NCBI GenBank assembly: GCA_018894435.1
Contig: JAHIPI010000041.1
Location: forward strand, 1 to 33,325
DNA from: Candidatus Omnitrophota bacterium
GTDB lineage: Bacteria; Omnitrophota; Gorgyraeia; JAHIPI01
Reading direction: 5' to 3'
Length of the DNA: 33,325 nucleotides
Shown here: piece after piece, positions 3 through 22,632 of the stretch
How positions within the stretch are numbered: position 1 is the first letter of the stretch
Layout of the letters: each line of letters begins with the position of its first letter
The notes under the pieces: generated by a model
Database searches by the model: none
What the model was told of the DNA's origin: nothing
What the model saw: the letters and a program-made list of their open reading frames with translations, nothing else
Translations under genes and position numbers: made by a program

Positions 3-1440
3 CCCGGATTTTGCAATAGAATTTAAGTTTTAAACGCTGTAGCCCACGAAAATTCATCAATTTTAGCAAACAATCCTTCAAACCATGGCCTTCGTTTTTG
101 AGCCAAAGAGACCTTAAGCACTTTTTGGCGGTATTTTTTCCCAATCCAGCTTCCTATTGCAAAGCATTGGAATCTTATCGTCTGTAATCGAGGTTGTATT
201 TTAAGGCCGAGAACCGCCTGCCTAAACAGACTAACCAAATTATATGCCACCATAACACATCTGAATGCGGCTTCAGTCGCGTAAAAATCTTTCGTACAAA
301 ACCCATTTAGGCCAAAATCATGTTTTAATTCTTCGATTCTATTTTCAGAATCAGCTCTTTGCCTGTATAGCCGCCAGACTTCAGGCGCAGGCAGGCCGAG
401 GTTTGTAACCCAAGCTTGATATCGATAGTCATGCATATCAAAAAGATATTTGCCGCCGGCTTGCGGCCGTTCTTCTACCAATTGGCGAATAGCTGTAATC
501 CTGCGCGCTTTTTGCCATGATCCGGCCTGATATTCAAATTCACCGCATTCGATTCCATTGTCAATTCTTGTCCAATTTTTTATCGCTTGGATTTTACCTT
601 TTATTATAGAATTCATCTTTGCGGCAATAATATATTCCAAGGCTTTGTTTTCAATATCATCAATAAATTTTCCGTCGAAGAATCCGGCATCGGCCCGCAA
701 TAAGCCAATACGATGCTTGCCTAATATATCCATAGTTTCGGACAAAAATACTTTTGCTCCGTTGGCGCTTCCCGTATTGCCTGGCCTTAACCAACTATGA
801 GCTACCATGCGTATATCCGCGATGAAAGCCATAATTGGATGATGGCTTGGCCTGCCGGGTTTACGCGGATTATATCCAACGAGACTGCCTTCTTGACTTC
901 CATAACGTGTTATAACCGAAGAGTCTAAATCAAGCGTAATGGTCTTTTCAGGAATTTGTTCAAAAAACCATTTGTTAATTTTGCCAAAAACATTATCAAC
1001 ACATTCTCTGTTGAACTTCTTAAAAAATCTCGTATAGGTGCTTACGCAGGGCATACGGTTCCATCCAAAAATCTCTTTTAAGGCATCATCGAATCGCACC
1101 ATTGCAGTGTGGGAGAATCTTACTCCGCCCAACCATACGCTAACCCAAAAACTTTCTATAACTTGGACAGGATTATATCCGCAGTTCGATGCAGGCCATG
1201 GCAGGCAGGATTCCTCTAGAACTTTTCTAATTTCTGTCCGATCTAAAAACTCTTTGAACATCCGCATCCCGCCCCATGCCGTTACTTTCCTGTCGGTAAA
1301 TTCCCACTGGATATTCTTTGTTATTGCCTGCATCTTTTTGTGCCTCCGTCATTTTTACATGCGTTGTCGTAACCCCTAATATTATAGACAATTATATCAC
1401 TACCTGCGCGTTAAGAAAAGAAGCTATTGCAAAATCCGGG
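3..1440 (-). mobile_element. IS1380-family insertion sequence, apparently complete
   Basis: The left end reads CCCGGATTTTGCAATAG (3-19) and the right end is its exact reverse complement (1424-1440), so the terminal inverted repeats are perfect over 17 bp. One transposase gene fills the interior. The right flank continues TTAA (1441-1444), and the two bases visible to the left are AA, which fits a 4-bp TTAA target duplication whose first half lies outside the window. The element interrupts a serine recombinase gene that continues to its right. Intact ends and an intact transposase suggest a fairly recent insertion. Confidence 0.88.
23..1333 (-). CDS. IS1380-family transposase
   Basis: 436-residue DDE transposase that would cut and rejoin the ends of the surrounding insertion sequence. 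The family is recognised from the block around residues 131-170 (TLDLDSSVITRYG, then SHHPIMAF), which carries the first catalytic Asp (D135 or D137). The second catalytic Asp is in LRADAGFF (D215), and the catalytic Glu lies in YRQRADSENRIEELK near residue 335, followed by the GF-rich C-terminal block. Length is normal for the family and there is no internal stop or frameshift. It is the only gene between the 17-bp terminal repeats, and its start lies about 100 bp inside the right end. Confidence 0.9.
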   Translation of the reverse strand: MQAITKNIQWEFTDRKVTAWGGMRMFKEFLDRTEIRKVLEESCLPWPASNCGYNPVQVIESFWVSVWLGGVRFSHTAMVRFDDALKEIFGWNRMPCVSTYTRFFKKFNRECVDNVFGKINKWFFEQIPEKTITLDLDSSVITRYGSQEGSLVGYNPRKPGRPSHHPIMAFIADIRMVAHSWLRPGNTGSANGAKVFLSETMDILGKHRIGLLRADAGFFDGKFIDDIENKALEYIIAAKMNSIIKGKIQAIKNWTRIDNGIECGEFEYQAGSWQKARRITAIRQLVEERPQAGGKYLFDMHDYRYQAWVTNLGLPAPEVWRLYRQRADSENRIEELKHDFGLNGFCTKDFYATEAAFRCVMVAYNLVSLFRQAVLGLKIQPRLQTIRFQCFAIGSWIGKKYRQKVLKVSLAQKRRPWFEGLFAKIDEFSWATAFKT

Positions 1441-16888: not shown

Positions 16889-18325
16889 ATGGCGTTTAAT
16901 TCCCTACAATTTGTACTATTTTTCGTAATCGTTTACATATTATATCTTGCTTCCGGCCTCAAATGGCAAAATAAAATATTGCTTGCCGCCAGCTATGTGT
17001 TTTATGCTTTTTGGGACTGGCGGTTTCTTTCCATTATACTCGTGTCGACACTCTTTAATTATTACGGCGGATTAAAAATAGACGAGGTCGACAGAGATAG
17101 CGAGCGAAAAAAATTCCTTATTCTTAGCGTATGCCTTAATCTCGGCCTGCTCGGCTTCTTTAAGTATTATGATTTTTTCGCCGGTAGTTTACAGACGCTG
17201 CTGTGGTCATTCGGCTGGCGCATCAGCAAGGTAACGCTTAATATTGTGCTGCCATTAGGTATCTCTTTTTATACATTTCAGGCAATGAGTTATCCTATTG
17301 ATATATATCGTCGGGTGATAAAACCTACCAGGCACTTTCTCGATTTCGCCCTATTTGTTGCATTTTTCCCGCAATTGGTGGCAGGCCCCATTGAAAGAGC
17401 CAGAAATATGCTGCCCCAGATACAGAGCAAAAGGCACATTACATTAGATCAGTTTTATACAGGTTGCTGGCTTATATTCTGGGGGCTTTTCAAGAAGATA
17501 GTCGTTGCCGACAACCTTGCGAAAGTAGCAGGCAGAGTTTTTGGTGCGCAAGGGGCCTTTACCGGCATCGAGACATTAATCGCTACATATGCATTCGTGT
17601 TTCAAATATACGCGGATTTCTCCGGATACTCGGATATGGCGAGAGGTTTGGCCAGGCTCATGGGTTTTAATATCATGATTAACTTCCGCGTACCCTTTTT
17701 TGCCTCAAATTTATATGACTTCTGGCAGAGATGGCATATCAGTTTAACTACATGGATTAAGGAATACCTCTTTTATCCGCTGGCGCTGGCAAAATTTCTC
17801 GGAAGGCAGCTTAAACCATATTCGGTCGTAATAATAACGTGGGCGATTATGGGATTCTGGCATGGCCCTGCCGGGAAATTCATATTATGGGGCGTATATC
17901 ACGGTGTGCTTATTGTACTTTTCAGTAAAATACGCCCGTACCTGAAACTCATAAGACCACAAAATCGCTTATTAGCGGGAAGCCTTCTGACCGGCCAGAT
18001 ATTAACCGTTTTCCATTTATTCTGCATCGGCATCTTATTTTTTGCAGCAGAATCTACGGCGCAGGCATTTGGAGCATTATATAGCATATTTTTTAATTTT
18101 AAAATAGGGCATCTTTACACCATGCACATGCCGACCTTAGCCGCCATATCAATGTGCATATTTCCGATGATGTTAATCGAATACTTCCAATACAGGACAA
18201 ACGACGAAATGGTTGTATTCAGATGGCCAGCGCCTGTAAGAGGGCTTGTTTATTATGTAATATTGTACTTAATAATTTTTTATGGAGACTTCGGTGCGCA
18301 GAAATATTACTACTTTCAATTTTAA
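16889..18325 (+). CDS. MBOAT acyltransferase (AlgI/DltB-like)
   Basis: 478-residue polytopic membrane protein with about ten hydrophobic segments. Family hallmarks: LPLGISFYTFQAMSYPIDIYR, FFPQLVAGPIERA, FWQRWHISLTTWIKEYLFYPL (H283), and GFWHGPAGKFILWGVYHG with the invariant catalytic His at 325. Such proteins move an acyl group across the inner membrane onto a polysaccharide or other envelope polymer. AlgI acetylates alginate; DltB moves D-alanine from its carrier. It overlaps the next gene, an SGNH-type protein, as in both systems. With a carrier protein and a ligase downstream, the DltB analogy is the closer one. The start has only a weak Shine-Dalgarno. Confidence 0.92.
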   Translation: MAFNSLQFVLFFVIVYILYLASGLKWQNKILLAASYVFYAFWDWRFLSIILVSTLFNYYGGLKIDEVDRDSERKKFLILSVCLNLGLLGFFKYYDFFAGSLQTLLWSFGWRISKVTLNIVLPLGISFYTFQAMSYPIDIYRRVIKPTRHFLDFALFVAFFPQLVAGPIERARNMLPQIQSKRHITLDQFYTGCWLIFWGLFKKIVVADNLAKVAGRVFGAQGAFTGIETLIATYAFVFQIYADFSGYSDMARGLARLMGFNIMINFRVPFFASNLYDFWQRWHISLTTWIKEYLFYPLALAKFLGRQLKPYSVVIITWAIMGFWHGPAGKFILWGVYHGVLIVLFSKIRPYLKLIRPQNRLLAGSLLTGQILTVFHLFCIGILFFAAESTAQAFGALYSIFFNFKIGHLYTMHMPTLAAISMCIFPMMLIEYFQYRTNDEMVVFRWPAPVRGLVYYVILYLIIFYGDFGAQKYYYFQF

Positions 18326-19274
18326 AGTACTCCCATGGGGAGTCCTGATTATGGCAATACTCTTTTTGTTGACAGAATGGTTTCTGTATTCAAACCGCGC
18401 CGAGCTGATAGATGATTACTGGAATAAATTTCTGATAAACGAACACGTGCTTATAGATATGCCGGGGGACTACGACTACCTCATAATGGGGGACAGCGTG
18501 CAGAAGACAGGAATAAACCCGATTCTTGTGAGCGAGGACATTCTTAATTTAGGGCTCCCGGGGGCAAAACCGATGGGCCAATTTTTGATGCTCGAGAGGT
18601 ATCTGAAAAAACATAAGCCGCCGAAGGCGATATTCTTATTCGTCGATCCGGAGCGTTCCTACGATTCTCTTTTGGTTATACTGCGCTATTTTGTGGACAT
18701 GCCCGAATTCGTTTCCATTTGGGGAGATTTAAACTGGGAAGAGAGACGGTGTTTTATGATGAGATATTGGGCAAGCCTGGACGAGAGGGAAGTCAGGCGC
18801 GTAGAAAGGGACAAGTACGGACAGAGTAACGCAGTTTTTATCAACGATATGGAAAAAAACCACGGATACATGCCCTCTCCGCGCGCGAACGTGGCGATCG
18901 GCGATACTTATTTTACCGAACATACCGAGCGCTATCAGAAAAGGATATCGATTTCGAAGGAAGATATGAAGTATCTCGACAAATTCATGAAGCTGGCCTC
19001 CTCGAATGACATAAAGGTCGTATTTCTGGGGTTTGTGGTCCCTACGGAATTACACCGCATCTTGGAAAAGAGCGGTTTTAATACCGATTACCTGATATTC
19101 TTCCGGGCACTACAACGAGTCTATCCGGAGGCCATTTTTGTGGATAGGCCTATTCTTCATCTGGAGAATAAATATTTCGGTGACATGTCGCATTTAAATA
19201 AAGAAGGCTCCAGCGTCTACGCCGAATATTTTAAGATATTGTTTTATAGTCTCAGAAACGGAGGCGCGATATGA
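18294..19274 (+). CDS. Membrane-anchored SGNH-type protein (DltD/AlgX-like role)
   Basis: 326 residues from the GTG at 18294, which has GGAG seven bases upstream; an ATG at 18282 in the same frame is the alternative. An N-terminal anchor (VLIMAILFLLTEWFLY) is followed by an extracytoplasmic domain. The SGNH features are LIMGDSVQ (Ser72 counted from the ATG at 18282) and near the end GDMSHLNKEG (Asp301, His304), the usual DxxH pair. It overlaps the MBOAT gene by 32 bp. Family members act outside the inner membrane as the partner that transfers or removes acyl groups. Overall similarity beyond these motifs is low, so the substrate cannot be named. Confidence 0.75.
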   Translation: MRRNITTFNFKVLPWGVLIMAILFLLTEWFLYSNRAELIDDYWNKFLINEHVLIDMPGDYDYLIMGDSVQKTGINPILVSEDILNLGLPGAKPMGQFLMLERYLKKHKPPKAIFLFVDPERSYDSLLVILRYFVDMPEFVSIWGDLNWEERRCFMMRYWASLDEREVRRVERDKYGQSNAVFINDMEKNHGYMPSPRANVAIGDTYFTEHTERYQKRISISKEDMKYLDKFMKLASSNDIKVVFLGFVVPTELHRILEKSGFNTDYLIFFRALQRVYPEAIFVDRPILHLENKYFGDMSHLNKEGSSVYAEYFKILFYSLRNGGAI

Positions 19275-20272
19275 GAAGGTGTAGAAGATGTGTCCTGCCG
19301 GACGATTTCCCCCGCGTGAGGCTTGACAACGAAGGCGTGTGCAATGTATGCCGGAGCTATAAAGGAAAAAGAGATTCCTCCCGCCTCAGGAGAGAGTATA
19401 AAAAGAAGTTCGAGAGCCTCGCCAGACAGTACAGCGGCAGGAATGAATATGATATCCTTATGTGTTACAGCGGCGGCAAAGACAGCACATATACCCTGAG
19501 CCTCCTGAAGGATGTTTATAAGCTGAGAATATTGGCGTTCACTTTCGACAATGGGTTTATGCCGGAGAGGACAGCCGTTAATATACGGAATGTCGTAGAG
19601 AAGCTGGGCGTAGACCACATCTTTTTTAAGCCGAACTTCGATATACTGAAGAAGATCTTCAGAGAAGCCGCAAAAAGGGCCTTATATCCGCCGAAAGCCA
19701 TCGAGCGCGCCAGCACAATATGCACCTCATGCATGGGTCTCGTTAAATATTTATCGCTAAAGACAGCGATTGAAAAGGAGATCCCGTTAATAGCTTTCGG
19801 GTGGTCTCCCGGGCAGGCGCCGGTTACCTCGTCGGTGCTTAAGATAAATCCGGTGATGATAAAAAGCATGGAGAAGGTCATAAAAGAGCCGCTCTTTCGC
19901 ATAATCGGCAGGGATATCGGCGCATATTTCCTTAACGAACGCCATTATGCCAGGGCAGAGAAATTTCCTATATTCATTCACCCCCTGGCCTTCCACGGGT
20001 ATAACGAGAAGAAGATATTAGAGAAAATAAAAAAATTGGGGTGGGAAATGCCCCACGGGGTTGAGCTAAACGCTACAAATTGCTATTTAAACCCCTTTGC
20101 CGATGAGGTACATATAGCAAAATACCATTTTCACCCTTATGCGCTGGAAATAGCAGCTCTTGTGCGGGAAGGATGTATGACCCGCGAAGAAGGCTTAAAG
20201 CATATGCCGGTCAGGAAGAATCAGAAGATTGTAAAACTGGCAAAAAAACGGTTAGGGTTATCAAGGGAATAA
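19271..20272 (+). CDS. PP-loop ATP pyrophosphatase, N-acetyl sugar amidotransferase-like
   Basis: 333 residues, overlapping the previous gene by ATGA. It has an N-terminal Cys4 site (C4, C7, C24, C27) in the context CRRCVLPDDFPRVRLDNEGVCNVC, the PP-loop SGGKDS at 67-72, and a further CTSC (C151, C154). This matches the WbpG/PseA/WbuX-type family, which activates a carbonyl with ATP and installs nitrogen on an N-acetyl sugar. WbpG normally takes ammonia from HisH- and HisF-like partners; neither is encoded nearby. In this cassette it may instead modify the acyl group or the sugar acceptor; that is inference. Confidence 0.8.
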   Translation: MRRCRRCVLPDDFPRVRLDNEGVCNVCRSYKGKRDSSRLRREYKKKFESLARQYSGRNEYDILMCYSGGKDSTYTLSLLKDVYKLRILAFTFDNGFMPERTAVNIRNVVEKLGVDHIFFKPNFDILKKIFREAAKRALYPPKAIERASTICTSCMGLVKYLSLKTAIEKEIPLIAFGWSPGQAPVTSSVLKINPVMIKSMEKVIKEPLFRIIGRDIGAYFLNERHYARAEKFPIFIHPLAFHGYNEKKILEKIKKLGWEMPHGVELNATNCYLNPFADEVHIAKYHFHPYALEIAALVREGCMTREEGLKHMPVRKNQKIVKLAKKRLGLSRE

Positions 20273-20274
20273 CC

Positions 20275-20538
20275 ATGAGTGAAGACATAAAAGGCAAAAT
20301 AAGAAAATTTATCGTGGACAATTACCTCAAGCGCTTGCAGGATAATCAGCTGAAAGATAATGATTCATTTCTTGAGCAGGGCATAATCGATTCTATCGGC
20401 GTGATAGAGCTGACCAATTTTATTCAAAAGGCCTTCCGTATAGAAATCGAGGTTTCTGAGATCATTCCGGATAATTTTGACACGCTGAATAACCTGGAAA
20501 GATATATAACGAAGAAATTGAGAAAAGACGCAAAATGA
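20275..20538 (+). CDS. Acyl carrier protein (DltC-like)
   Basis: 87 residues from the ATG at 20275, two bases after the PP-loop gene stop. A four-helix carrier fold is suggested, with the phosphopantetheine serine at position 40 in GIIDSIGVIEL. The surrounding sequence (NDSFLEQGIIDSIGVIELTNFIQKAFRI in part) resembles carriers paired with stand-alone adenylating ligases rather than fatty-acid AcpP, which has DSLDTVEL. Its last four bases overlap the ligase start (ATGA). It probably carries the substrate activated by the downstream ligase to the MBOAT protein. Confidence 0.87.
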   Translation: MSEDIKGKIRKFIVDNYLKRLQDNQLKDNDSFLEQGIIDSIGVIELTNFIQKAFRIEIEVSEIIPDNFDTLNNLERYITKKLRKDAK

Positions 20539-22019
20539 TCGCCTATCTCGACGATATCGTTTCGAACGCCGCAAAAAGATATCCTCATAATATTGCCATC
20601 ATAGAGGCCGGTAGGAGGACAAAATCTGTTACTTACAAAGAGCTTGAAAGAAGGGTCATTGCTTTATCGGGCTACCTGGTGCGGAAGGGGTTAAGAAAAG
20701 GAGAGAGGGTCGGGATCCTTTCAAAAAATTCCATTACATCCGCTGCTTTGTATTTTGCCGTATCCCGGGCCGGCGGCATAATCATACCGCTTAATCATGC
20801 CCTTGACCCGTCGGGCATAATTGAGCGCGCGAATCATTGTGCTATTTCCGCATTATACGCCGGGAAAGAATTTAAGAAACAGGCCAAAGAGATTGCCGAT
20901 AATGTTAAGTCTGTCAGGTTTGTCGTTAAGAATATAGGGTACCCCGCCGCACTAAAGAAAGCCCGCGAGACATCCACAGGAAGCCCTGTTTCTATAATCT
21001 ATACCTCAGGCACGACCGGAGAGCCGCTGGGAGTTACACTCAGCCATAAGAATCTTATTTCTAATAGCTTGTCTATTGTGAAATATCTCAACCTCACCTC
21101 TCGTGACAGCGTATGTTGTGTCTTGCCGTTTTATTATATTTACGGCCTTTCGTTACTCTTTTCATATTTTTTAGCAGGCGGAACGATAGTGATTAATAAC
21201 AGATTCATGTACCCCAATCTGGTATTGGATTCCATAGATAAGTATAAGGCCACAGCCTTTGCCGGGGTCTCATCCCATTACGCAATCATGCTCTATATGT
21301 CTACCCTTAAGAAGCGCAGGCTCAGGGGCTTGAAATATTTTATGCAGGCAGGAGACAAGATGCCGCCGCACATAACCATGGAATTAACAGAGGCGCTCCC
21401 CGATAAGAAATTGTACATTATGTATGGGCAGACAGAGGCCTCTCCGCGGCTGACTTATCTAAACCCCGATTTGGTAAAGAGAAAACCGGACTCAATAGGC
21501 AGGGCTATCCCCGGCGTAGAGATAAAAGTGGTAAATAAACAGGGTGCTGAATGCAGAGCCGGCCAGGAGGGTGAAATCGTAGCCAGCGGCGATAATATTA
21601 TGCTAGGCTACTGGAACAATGACAGTGAAACGGCAAAGGTTATAAAAAAGAGACGGCTTTATACGGGTGATATCGCCTTTAAGGATAGTGACGGCGACCT
21701 GTTTATCGTAGGACGCAAAAAGGATTTTATAAAAGTCGGCGCTAATCGTATAAATCCGTTAAAGATCGAACAATTGATGACAGAAGACAGCAGGATTATG
21801 GAAGCAGCCGCTATAGGAGTACCTGACAGAGTATTAGGGACAAGAATTAAGATATTTGTTACTCTGGTTCCCGGGGGAAAAGCAGGGCACAAAGATATTA
21901 TACGATTTTGCAGCGGCCGGCTACCTTCTTATGTAAGACCCTGTGATATCACAATTCTGAAAGCCATGCCAAAAAATAGCTATGGGAAAATAGACAGGAA
22001 AAAGCTGGAGGCGATGTAA
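20535..22019 (+). CDS. Acyl/aminoacyl-AMP ligase (ANL superfamily, DltA-like role)
   Basis: 494-residue adenylate-forming enzyme. It shows the nucleotide loop YTSGTTGEPLGV (156-167), YGQTEASPRLTYL, the TGD block (LYTGDIAFKDSDGDLFIVGRKKDFIKVG) and the C-terminal catalytic lysine in NSYGKIDRKKL (K485). Position 165 in the loop is Leu, where most family members have Lys (PKG); the catalytic A10 lysine is kept. It should activate a small carboxylic acid or amino acid and load it on the carrier encoded just upstream. The substrate cannot be read from the sequence by eye. No condensation or thioesterase domain is attached. Confidence 0.87.
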   Translation: MIAYLDDIVSNAAKRYPHNIAIIEAGRRTKSVTYKELERRVIALSGYLVRKGLRKGERVGILSKNSITSAALYFAVSRAGGIIIPLNHALDPSGIIERANHCAISALYAGKEFKKQAKEIADNVKSVRFVVKNIGYPAALKKARETSTGSPVSIIYTSGTTGEPLGVTLSHKNLISNSLSIVKYLNLTSRDSVCCVLPFYYIYGLSLLFSYFLAGGTIVINNRFMYPNLVLDSIDKYKATAFAGVSSHYAIMLYMSTLKKRRLRGLKYFMQAGDKMPPHITMELTEALPDKKLYIMYGQTEASPRLTYLNPDLVKRKPDSIGRAIPGVEIKVVNKQGAECRAGQEGEIVASGDNIMLGYWNNDSETAKVIKKRRLYTGDIAFKDSDGDLFIVGRKKDFIKVGANRINPLKIEQLMTEDSRIMEAAAIGVPDRVLGTRIKIFVTLVPGGKAGHKDIIRFCSGRLPSYVRPCDITILKAMPKNSYGKIDRKKLEAM

Positions 22020-22020
22020 T

Positions 22021-22632
22021 ATGAAAAAAGTCTTTGTTTTTTGCGTGGTTGTATCAATTTTTGTTTTGTCAGCCGGCTCAGGGTTTGCCAAAATTGAGAT
22101 TCCGGGAAGGGCCAGTACATGGGTAAACGATTACGCCGGCATTATCGATAAAGACACAAAGGCCTATCTTGAGCAGCTCTGCGGTTCCGTAGAGCAGAAG
22201 ACATCCGATCCTATAGAAGTAATTGTCGCCACTTTTCGCTCTTTGGGCGGATGGGACTTAAGAGATTTTACCACAGAATATGGAGAGAAATGGAGAGAGG
22301 CGAAGAAAGGTAGAAGGGACAACGGAGTGATATTGCTGGTAGTTATGGATACTCAACAGGTTACAATAGGAGTGGGCCAGAACCTCAGGCATATAGTGAC
22401 CCAGAAAACGATCGAAGATATAGTGCAAAATACCATTGTTCCTGAATTCAAAAAAAATAACTATGCTGGAGGCATAAAGAAAGGCACAGAAGCCATTGTC
22501 AGCATATTGAATAAAGCAGATATTCCCGCTAATAAGCCGATTACCGGGGCAAAACTTATTGCTTTGTTAGTGCTTATCGGAATAGGCTTAATTATTATTA
22601 GAGGCCTCCTTAAGAAGGGAGTTTCGGCTTAA
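22021..22632 (+). CDS. TPM-domain membrane-anchored protein
   Basis: 203 residues: a signal peptide (hydrophobic 4-20, cleavage likely after GFA near 23), a TPM domain (VNDYAGIIDKDTKAYLEQL, then RDNGVILLVVMDTQQVTIGVGQNL), and a C-terminal transmembrane helix (IALLVLIGIGLIIIRGLL). TPM proteins sit outside the inner membrane; roles reported in the family include photosystem II repair and phosphatase-like activity, and no precise function is inferred here. It begins one base after the ligase stop, so it is probably co-transcribed with the acylation cassette and may act at the same place in the envelope. Confidence 0.8.
   Translation: MKKVFVFCVVVSIFVLSAGSGFAKIEIPGRASTWVNDYAGIIDKDTKAYLEQLCGSVEQKTSDPIEVIVATFRSLGGWDLRDFTTEYGEKWREAKKGRRDNGVILLVVMDTQQVTIGVGQNLRHIVTQKTIEDIVQNTIVPEFKKNNYAGGIKKGTEAIVSILNKADIPANKPITGAKLIALLVLIGIGLIIIRGLLKKGVSA

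Follow-up and report, generated by a model that had tools for sequence, protein, structure and literature searches.

A candidate MBOAT-SGNH envelope acylation cassette with an inserted PP-loop enzyme in a Candidatus Omnitrophota genome

This study analyzed a 33,325-nucleotide stretch of DNA from a Candidatus Omnitrophota bacterium (contig JAHIPI010000041.1, hereafter the window) and identified six closely packed genes on the plus strand at 16889-22632, encoding an MBOAT acyltransferase, an SGNH-like protein, a PP-loop enzyme, an acyl carrier protein, an AMP-forming ligase, and a TPM-domain protein. The evidence as a whole is best explained, with moderate confidence, by an operon that makes and exports an acyl decoration of the envelope. 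The sequence-only reading had proposed a ligase-carrier-MBOAT-SGNH acylation logic with an inserted PP-loop enzyme; our analysis supported this proposal, the gene order being kept in six genomes, and we consider this view of the cassette architecture reasonably probable. The cassette is best filed under MBOAT-SGNH envelope acylation. More tentatively, a widespread, unnamed ligase-carrier-PP-loop module, with AsnB or NadE-like enzymes in places, may build a modified acyl group (an amidine, amide, or thioamide on the carrier protein) for surface polymers, and would here be coupled to an MBOAT-SGNH-TPM arm with a re-tuned shuttle peptide, yielding a decoration unseen so far. No paper describing this composition was found in the open-access literature.

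The MBOAT gene (16889..18325; PF03062, 58.9 bits, cut-off 27) overlaps by 44 nt the gene of the SGNH-like protein (18282..19274), whose product has an N-terminal membrane helix and GDS and DxxH motifs. The latter gene overlaps by 4 nt that of the PP-loop (AANH) enzyme (19271..20272), which matched TIGR03573 (WbuX) at 148 bits, under the cut-off of 203.2. A gap of 2 nt precedes the gene of an 87-aa acyl carrier protein (20275..20538; PF00550) with a phosphopantetheine Ser40 (codon at 20392), and this gene overlaps by 4 nt that of the AMP-forming ligase, the predicted carrier loader (20535..22019; PF00501, 258 bits). The TPM-domain gene (22021..22632; PF04536, 104.6 bits) begins after a gap of 1 nt. 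Pfam and NCBIfam matches and motifs confirmed the earlier description of five overlapping or abutting genes with a TPM gene behind them, and the carrier serine named there, Ser40, holds in the 87-aa reading; a 121-aa ORF from 20173 is simply the mechanically longest frame.

The cassette lies in a region resembling a replication origin, in which ORF starts resembling gyrA, gyrB, dnaN, dnaA, and rnpA were recognized by eye and YidC and ParB were identified by Pfam. It is flanked by parB and an ndk-like gene, the origin region otherwise appearing conserved, and an ORF resembling a transposase (23-1333, minus strand) was noted by eye at the window edge. The genome comprises 1.57 Mb in 96 contigs and encodes an Omp85 protein; the host is therefore probably diderm, which agrees with the diderm appearance noted previously. 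A search of this genome for AsnB returned only sub-cut-off matches (C30, C64, and C2); the match on C30 resembles PurF, and that on C2 is divergent and belongs to a locus of sugar/glycosyltransferase type that is unlinked to the cassette. The cassette of the window contains no AsnB or NadE-like gene, so nitrogen, if used, would come from elsewhere.

We searched 384 genomes of the class for the PP-loop enzyme, and 15 contained a match at 1e-55 or better. The window, G049, and G101 share the order MBOAT-SGNH-PP-loop-carrier-ligase-TPM; G249, G129, and G068 show it with an AsnB gene placed between the PP-loop and carrier genes (in G129 the MBOAT lies past the contig end). This search for the five families in a conserved order, which had been suggested as a check, thus recovered the cassette in five further genomes, all outside the family of the window genome. 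Recurrence in six genomes ruled out a chance neighborhood. The cassette is nevertheless sparse (6/384 sampled genomes), and its distribution is patchy, since three sampled genomes of the same family contained no close PP-loop match. Six further genomes carry a second arrangement, carrier-ligase-PP-loop without MBOAT, often with AsnB or NadE-like genes. The matches in G176, G253, and G162 were weaker; these more distant relatives lie near ketoacyl synthase genes in two cases (L041 and L042) and adjoin a carrier protein gene in the third (L043).

The TPM gene was the final gene in all six cassettes. It had been described as following the cassette, and it is indeed present, but its constant last position makes it a conserved member rather than a follower. 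The start of its product resembles a signal peptide, and a membrane helix lies at the C-terminus. In the other cassette genomes (L030-L033 and L040), long secreted-looking ORFs were observed downstream of TPM, three of them exceeding 1,100 aa within the portion that was read; the window contains no relative of them.

The MBOAT protein has a conserved His325 (GFWHG) and a C-terminal hexapeptide, YYYFQF, at 473-478, in which Tyr475 (codon at 18311) is the predicted acceptor. In PatA and DltX, the Tyr of the FxYxxF peptide bears the acyl group (PMC12148441); the cassette peptide keeps this Tyr and the last Phe, and Tyr replaces the first Phe. MBOAT matches at 1e-90 or better occurred in 37 of 368 class genomes. 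In a tree of 37 sequences, including five from cassettes (the G249 protein, split over two frames, was joined), the cassette MBOATs formed one clade (99/99) separate from 31 ordinary MBOATs without the module. All five end in Y[YF]YFQF, and the ordinary MBOATs with an intact end have FIYFQF or, once, FIYYIF. None of the 32 non-cassette MBOAT loci read contained the PP-loop, carrier, and ligase set; some ligase was present within the stretch around the MBOAT in L086, L092, L098, and L101. MBOAT/SGNH pairs lacking the other genes, which had been named as potentially refuting evidence, are frequent in the class, but these fall outside the cassette clade.

The SGNH assignment for 18282..19274 is motif-based. 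Alignment placed a GDS motif at 70-72, which includes Ser72, and Asp301-x-x-His304. There was no clear SGNH family match; DUF1574 scored 28.2 bits, below the cut-off of 29.1, and was matched in nine of 10 relatives. An AlphaFold model built from three sequences (pLDDT 42.8) was too poor for use, and a PDB profile search with the alignment returned no match. Of the proposed SGNH-type membrane-anchored protein, the motifs and the membrane helix stand, whereas family membership reaches only a sub-cut-off match.

The best NCBIfam match of the ligase was ligase_PEP_1 (354.7 bits, below the cut-off of 592). In the ligase tree, the cassette enzymes and other carrier- or AsnB-adjacent ligases formed one clade (99/97) that leaves out 16 generic ligases of the class; L040 is long-branched. 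The alternative of an ordinary fatty acyl ligase, previously listed as a finding that would undermine the reading, was ruled out by this carrier-linked clade. The pocket motifs are FYYIYG and YGQTEASPR. An Asp in ligases of the NRPS type holds the amino group of the substrate; the cassette ligases have Ile there, a sister set has Ser, and the L003-type set has Asp. The carrier-linked ligases and L159 also have an Arg after YGxTE, which the generic and NRPS ligases lack. Together, the Ile and the Arg argue weakly against an alpha-amino acid. Ser40 of the carrier was invariant across 12 sequences.

The PP-loop enzyme contains a tetracysteine (C4/C7/C24/C27), SGGKDS at 67-72, C151-x-x-C154, and C271, all of which were common to 13 of 13 aligned sequences. 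Its structure model (pLDDT 86.2, four sequences) predicted an N-acetyl-sugar-amidotransferase fold; the best match was 8WEX (LpNASAT), followed by NcsA, TtuA, YcfA, and LarE, several of which carry [4Fe-4S]. HisH and HisF are the usual, though not universal, ammonia partners of N-acetyl sugar amidotransferases. A search for HisH revealed one strong match in the genome and none near the cassette; the fold match bears out the claimed kinship to these enzymes, and this result agrees, as far as HisH is concerned, with the claimed lack of dedicated partners. The cysteines C151, C154, and C271 make up a CxxC...C triad where thiolases have their Fe-S site, and C151 falls opposite the TtuA cluster cysteine C128 in a second, weak segment of the profile alignment. 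The cysteine pair is absent from 8WEX at the position of C151/C154, and the triad was missing in three of four hisH/hisF-linked homologues. The fourth, L164, possesses it beside hisH/hisF; the triad is thus not diagnostic of sulfur chemistry, and its value as proof of such chemistry is weakened.

We further examined 36 loci of close PP-loop homologues from three phyla (the window included, counted by hand). A carrier gene lay within 7 kb of the PP-loop gene in 35 of these and a ligase gene in 32, and AsnB or NadE-like genes were present in 25. The sole locus without a carrier, L193, stops 0.7 kb past the gene on one side. MBOAT was usually absent, occurring in five loci of the class and in L003, a MAG titled Clostridiales with carrier, ligase, NadE-like, PP-loop, SGNH-like, and MBOAT genes. 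The MBOAT of L003 ends without the C-terminal peptide, and its SGNH-like protein carries Cys where Ser is expected and has no DxxH; the mechanism proposed below may therefore not apply to L003. Close PP-loop relatives were found in 22 of 277 genomes of Thermodesulfobacteriota, the phylum of L004. In the same phylum, L192-L212 contain modules of carrier, ligase, and PP-loop genes accompanied by AsnB or NadE-like genes. Several of these modules lie close to genes of the XrtA/exopolysaccharide type, and no published name for them was found.

PP-loop domains were also present within NRPS proteins. In L151 (6415-14463, a Roseovarius pelagicus plasmid), and also in L154, a WbuX-like PP-loop domain lies in the first adenylation domain; in the Roseovarius protein it spans approximately residues 863-1166, between the adenylation core and its C-terminal part and before the carrier domain, and may represent a novel type of tailoring domain within interrupted A domains. 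In L152 (8938-11118, a plasmid of Streptomyces sp. NBC_01216), a PP-loop domain is fused to a condensation domain; its neighbors are asnB, a gene for an A-PCP protein, and one for an amino acid racemase. Gene sets without PP-loop or MBOAT were observed in L155 (4606-9054) and L156 (3599-8057), where AsnB, carrier, and ligase genes precede an AAC(3)-family acyltransferase gene (by Pfam on L155), that is, the same acyl supply with a different transferase.

Two published enzymes provide precedents. CtaC is an AANH enzyme that acts on carrier-bound peptides and requires C154, C157, and C284 (PMC6772006), and the amidotransferase OxyD, the presumed maker of a malonamate starter unit (PMC6164072), offers an example of nitrogen chemistry in a pathway built on carriers. 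The linkage to carrier and ligase genes with or without MBOAT, the NRPS-embedded relatives, and these precedents lead us to assign the PP-loop reaction to the acyl-carrier side, which we consider likely. Where modification of either the sugar or the acyl group had been envisaged, the acyl side is now favored and the sugar side disfavored.

Starting from the observed gene content, order, conservation, clade structure, and motifs and from the predicted fold of the PP-loop enzyme, we infer the catalytic steps by analogy with Dlt, PatA/PatB, and CtaC, and likewise an acyl substrate, a glycan as acceptor, and a location in the envelope. The ligase would adenylate a carboxylic acid and load it onto Ser40 of the carrier. 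The PP-loop enzyme would use ATP to activate a carbonyl in the acyl group, whether already bound to the carrier or still destined for it, and would exchange the oxygen for nitrogen, giving an amide or amidine, or possibly for sulfur, giving a thioamide; in some genomes an AsnB or NadE-like enzyme encoded nearby would take part. Once finished, the acyl group would pass from the carrier to the MBOAT protein, whose His325 would serve to transfer it to Tyr475 in the C-terminal YYYFQF peptide of the same protein, on the outer side of the membrane. Ser72 of the SGNH-like protein would then take the acyl group and place it onto an envelope polymer, with the TPM protein as a putative envelope accessory.

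The chemistry of the PP-loop step admits two rivals. The first narrows the best explanation: the enzyme would insert sulfur, as a thioamide synthetase of the TtuA/CtaC kind, and a thio-acyl group would be exported. The invariant C151xxC154 and C271, the weak alignment with TtuA C128, the matched [4Fe-4S] folds, and the cysteines required by CtaC (PMC6772006) are consistent with it, but the triad also occurs beside hisH/hisF in L164, the AsnB and NadE-like neighbors suggest nitrogen chemistry, and the cassette has no sulfur-mobilizing gene; we regard this version as possible but doubtful. Alternatively, the enzyme may convert the N-acetyl group of a sugar to acetamidino, as WbpG and WbuX do, alongside ligase/carrier-fed O-acylation. 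This is unlikely: no dedicated HisH/HisF pair was seen (HisH was searched), the cassette lacks sugar genes, the PP-loop gene is tied to a carrier gene in 35 of 36 loci and to a ligase gene in 32, its relatives are embedded in NRPS proteins, and the triad is missing from 8WEX and most hisH/hisF-linked homologues. TIGR03573 is the nearest curated family, although its score is below the cut-off; the fold and tetracysteine of 8WEX speak for the sugar, as do the carrier/ligase modules of other genomes, which are often accompanied by glycosyltransferase-, sugar-, or XrtA-like genes in loci of exopolysaccharide type.

Two further rivals concern the cassette as a whole. Ordinary PatA/PatB-type O-acetylation, to which the neighboring PP-loop, ligase, and carrier genes would be functionally unrelated, would draw on acetyl-CoA, the acyl donor of PatA (PMC12148441), and would fit the abundance of ordinary MBOAT/SGNH pairs in the class; the separate cassette clade with its altered shuttle peptide, the presence of the module wherever this clade was seen, and the overlapping reading frames make it very improbable. 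A true Dlt system moved into a diderm, with D-alanine as the acyl group, is the least credible reading and highly improbable, despite the four similar roles. The four roles had been likened to DltA, DltB, DltC, and DltD, and this equation did not survive: the MBOAT scored 162.4 bits against the DltB equivalog TIGR04091 (cut-off 375), the carrier scored 29.4 bits against PRK05087 (cut-off 68) and 25.8 against TIGR01688 (cut-off 52.35), and no DltA model was among the 25 best NCBIfam matches of the ligase, in which ligase_PEP_1 ranked first and Ile replaces the amino-group-holding Asp. A separate DltX gene is absent from the cassette; the genes overlap or abut and leave no room for one, and the peptide sits at the MBOAT end. 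Dlt membership was ruled out by the family cut-offs and the ligase motif.

If the favored reading of an exported acyl decoration is true, carrier-fed MBOAT acylation reaches a probably diderm lineage and another acyl group, and the "N-acetyl sugar amidotransferase" PP-loop branch acquires a function on carrier-bound substrates that can be tested. Genes labeled sugar amidotransferases may then in many cases modify acyl-carrier intermediates instead. Whether the shuttle peptide is matched to its acyl group could be tested directly through the altered hexapeptide.

Among known systems, DltA, DltB, DltC, DltD, and DltX carry out the D-alanylation of Gram-positive teichoic acids, a carrier-fed MBOAT acylation. 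The cassette shares with Dlt the ligase, carrier, MBOAT, and putative SGNH-type roles, a predicted carrier-borne acyl donor, and a predicted acyl-Tyr shuttle peptide; it differs in the fusion of this peptide to the MBOAT, a ligase that is not DltA-like, another gene order, the added PP-loop and TPM genes (AsnB in some), and a genome with Omp85. With PatA/PatB and related Gram-negative MBOAT-SGNH O-acetylation it shares a fused C-terminal hexapeptide and a separate, putatively SGNH-type protein with a membrane anchor. PatA, however, uses acetyl-CoA, whereas the cassette has its own carrier and ligase, and its hexapeptide is Y[YF]YFQF rather than FxYxxF with the first Phe.

The PP-loop enzyme resembles WbpG, WbuX, and LpNASAT (8WEX, the best PDB match) in fold, SGGKDS, and N-terminal tetracysteine; unlike them, it is linked to a carrier and a ligase, with no dedicated HisH/HisF pair seen (HisH searched), and unlike 8WEX it has the extra CxxC...C triad. 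CtaC, the closthioamide thioamide synthetase, is likewise a carrier-linked AANH enzyme with a PP-loop and, by its published residues, CxxC...C, but it serves the assembly of a peptide antibiotic and has no MBOAT export step. The XrtA (exosortase A)-associated families ligase_PEP_1, the closest NCBIfam to the cassette ligase, and TIGR03108, an amidotransferase family matched by a cassette AsnB (L033) at 439 bits, are also similar, both with the cut-off missed; these families imply neither a PP-loop nor an MBOAT partner, both of which the cassette combines with its ligase.
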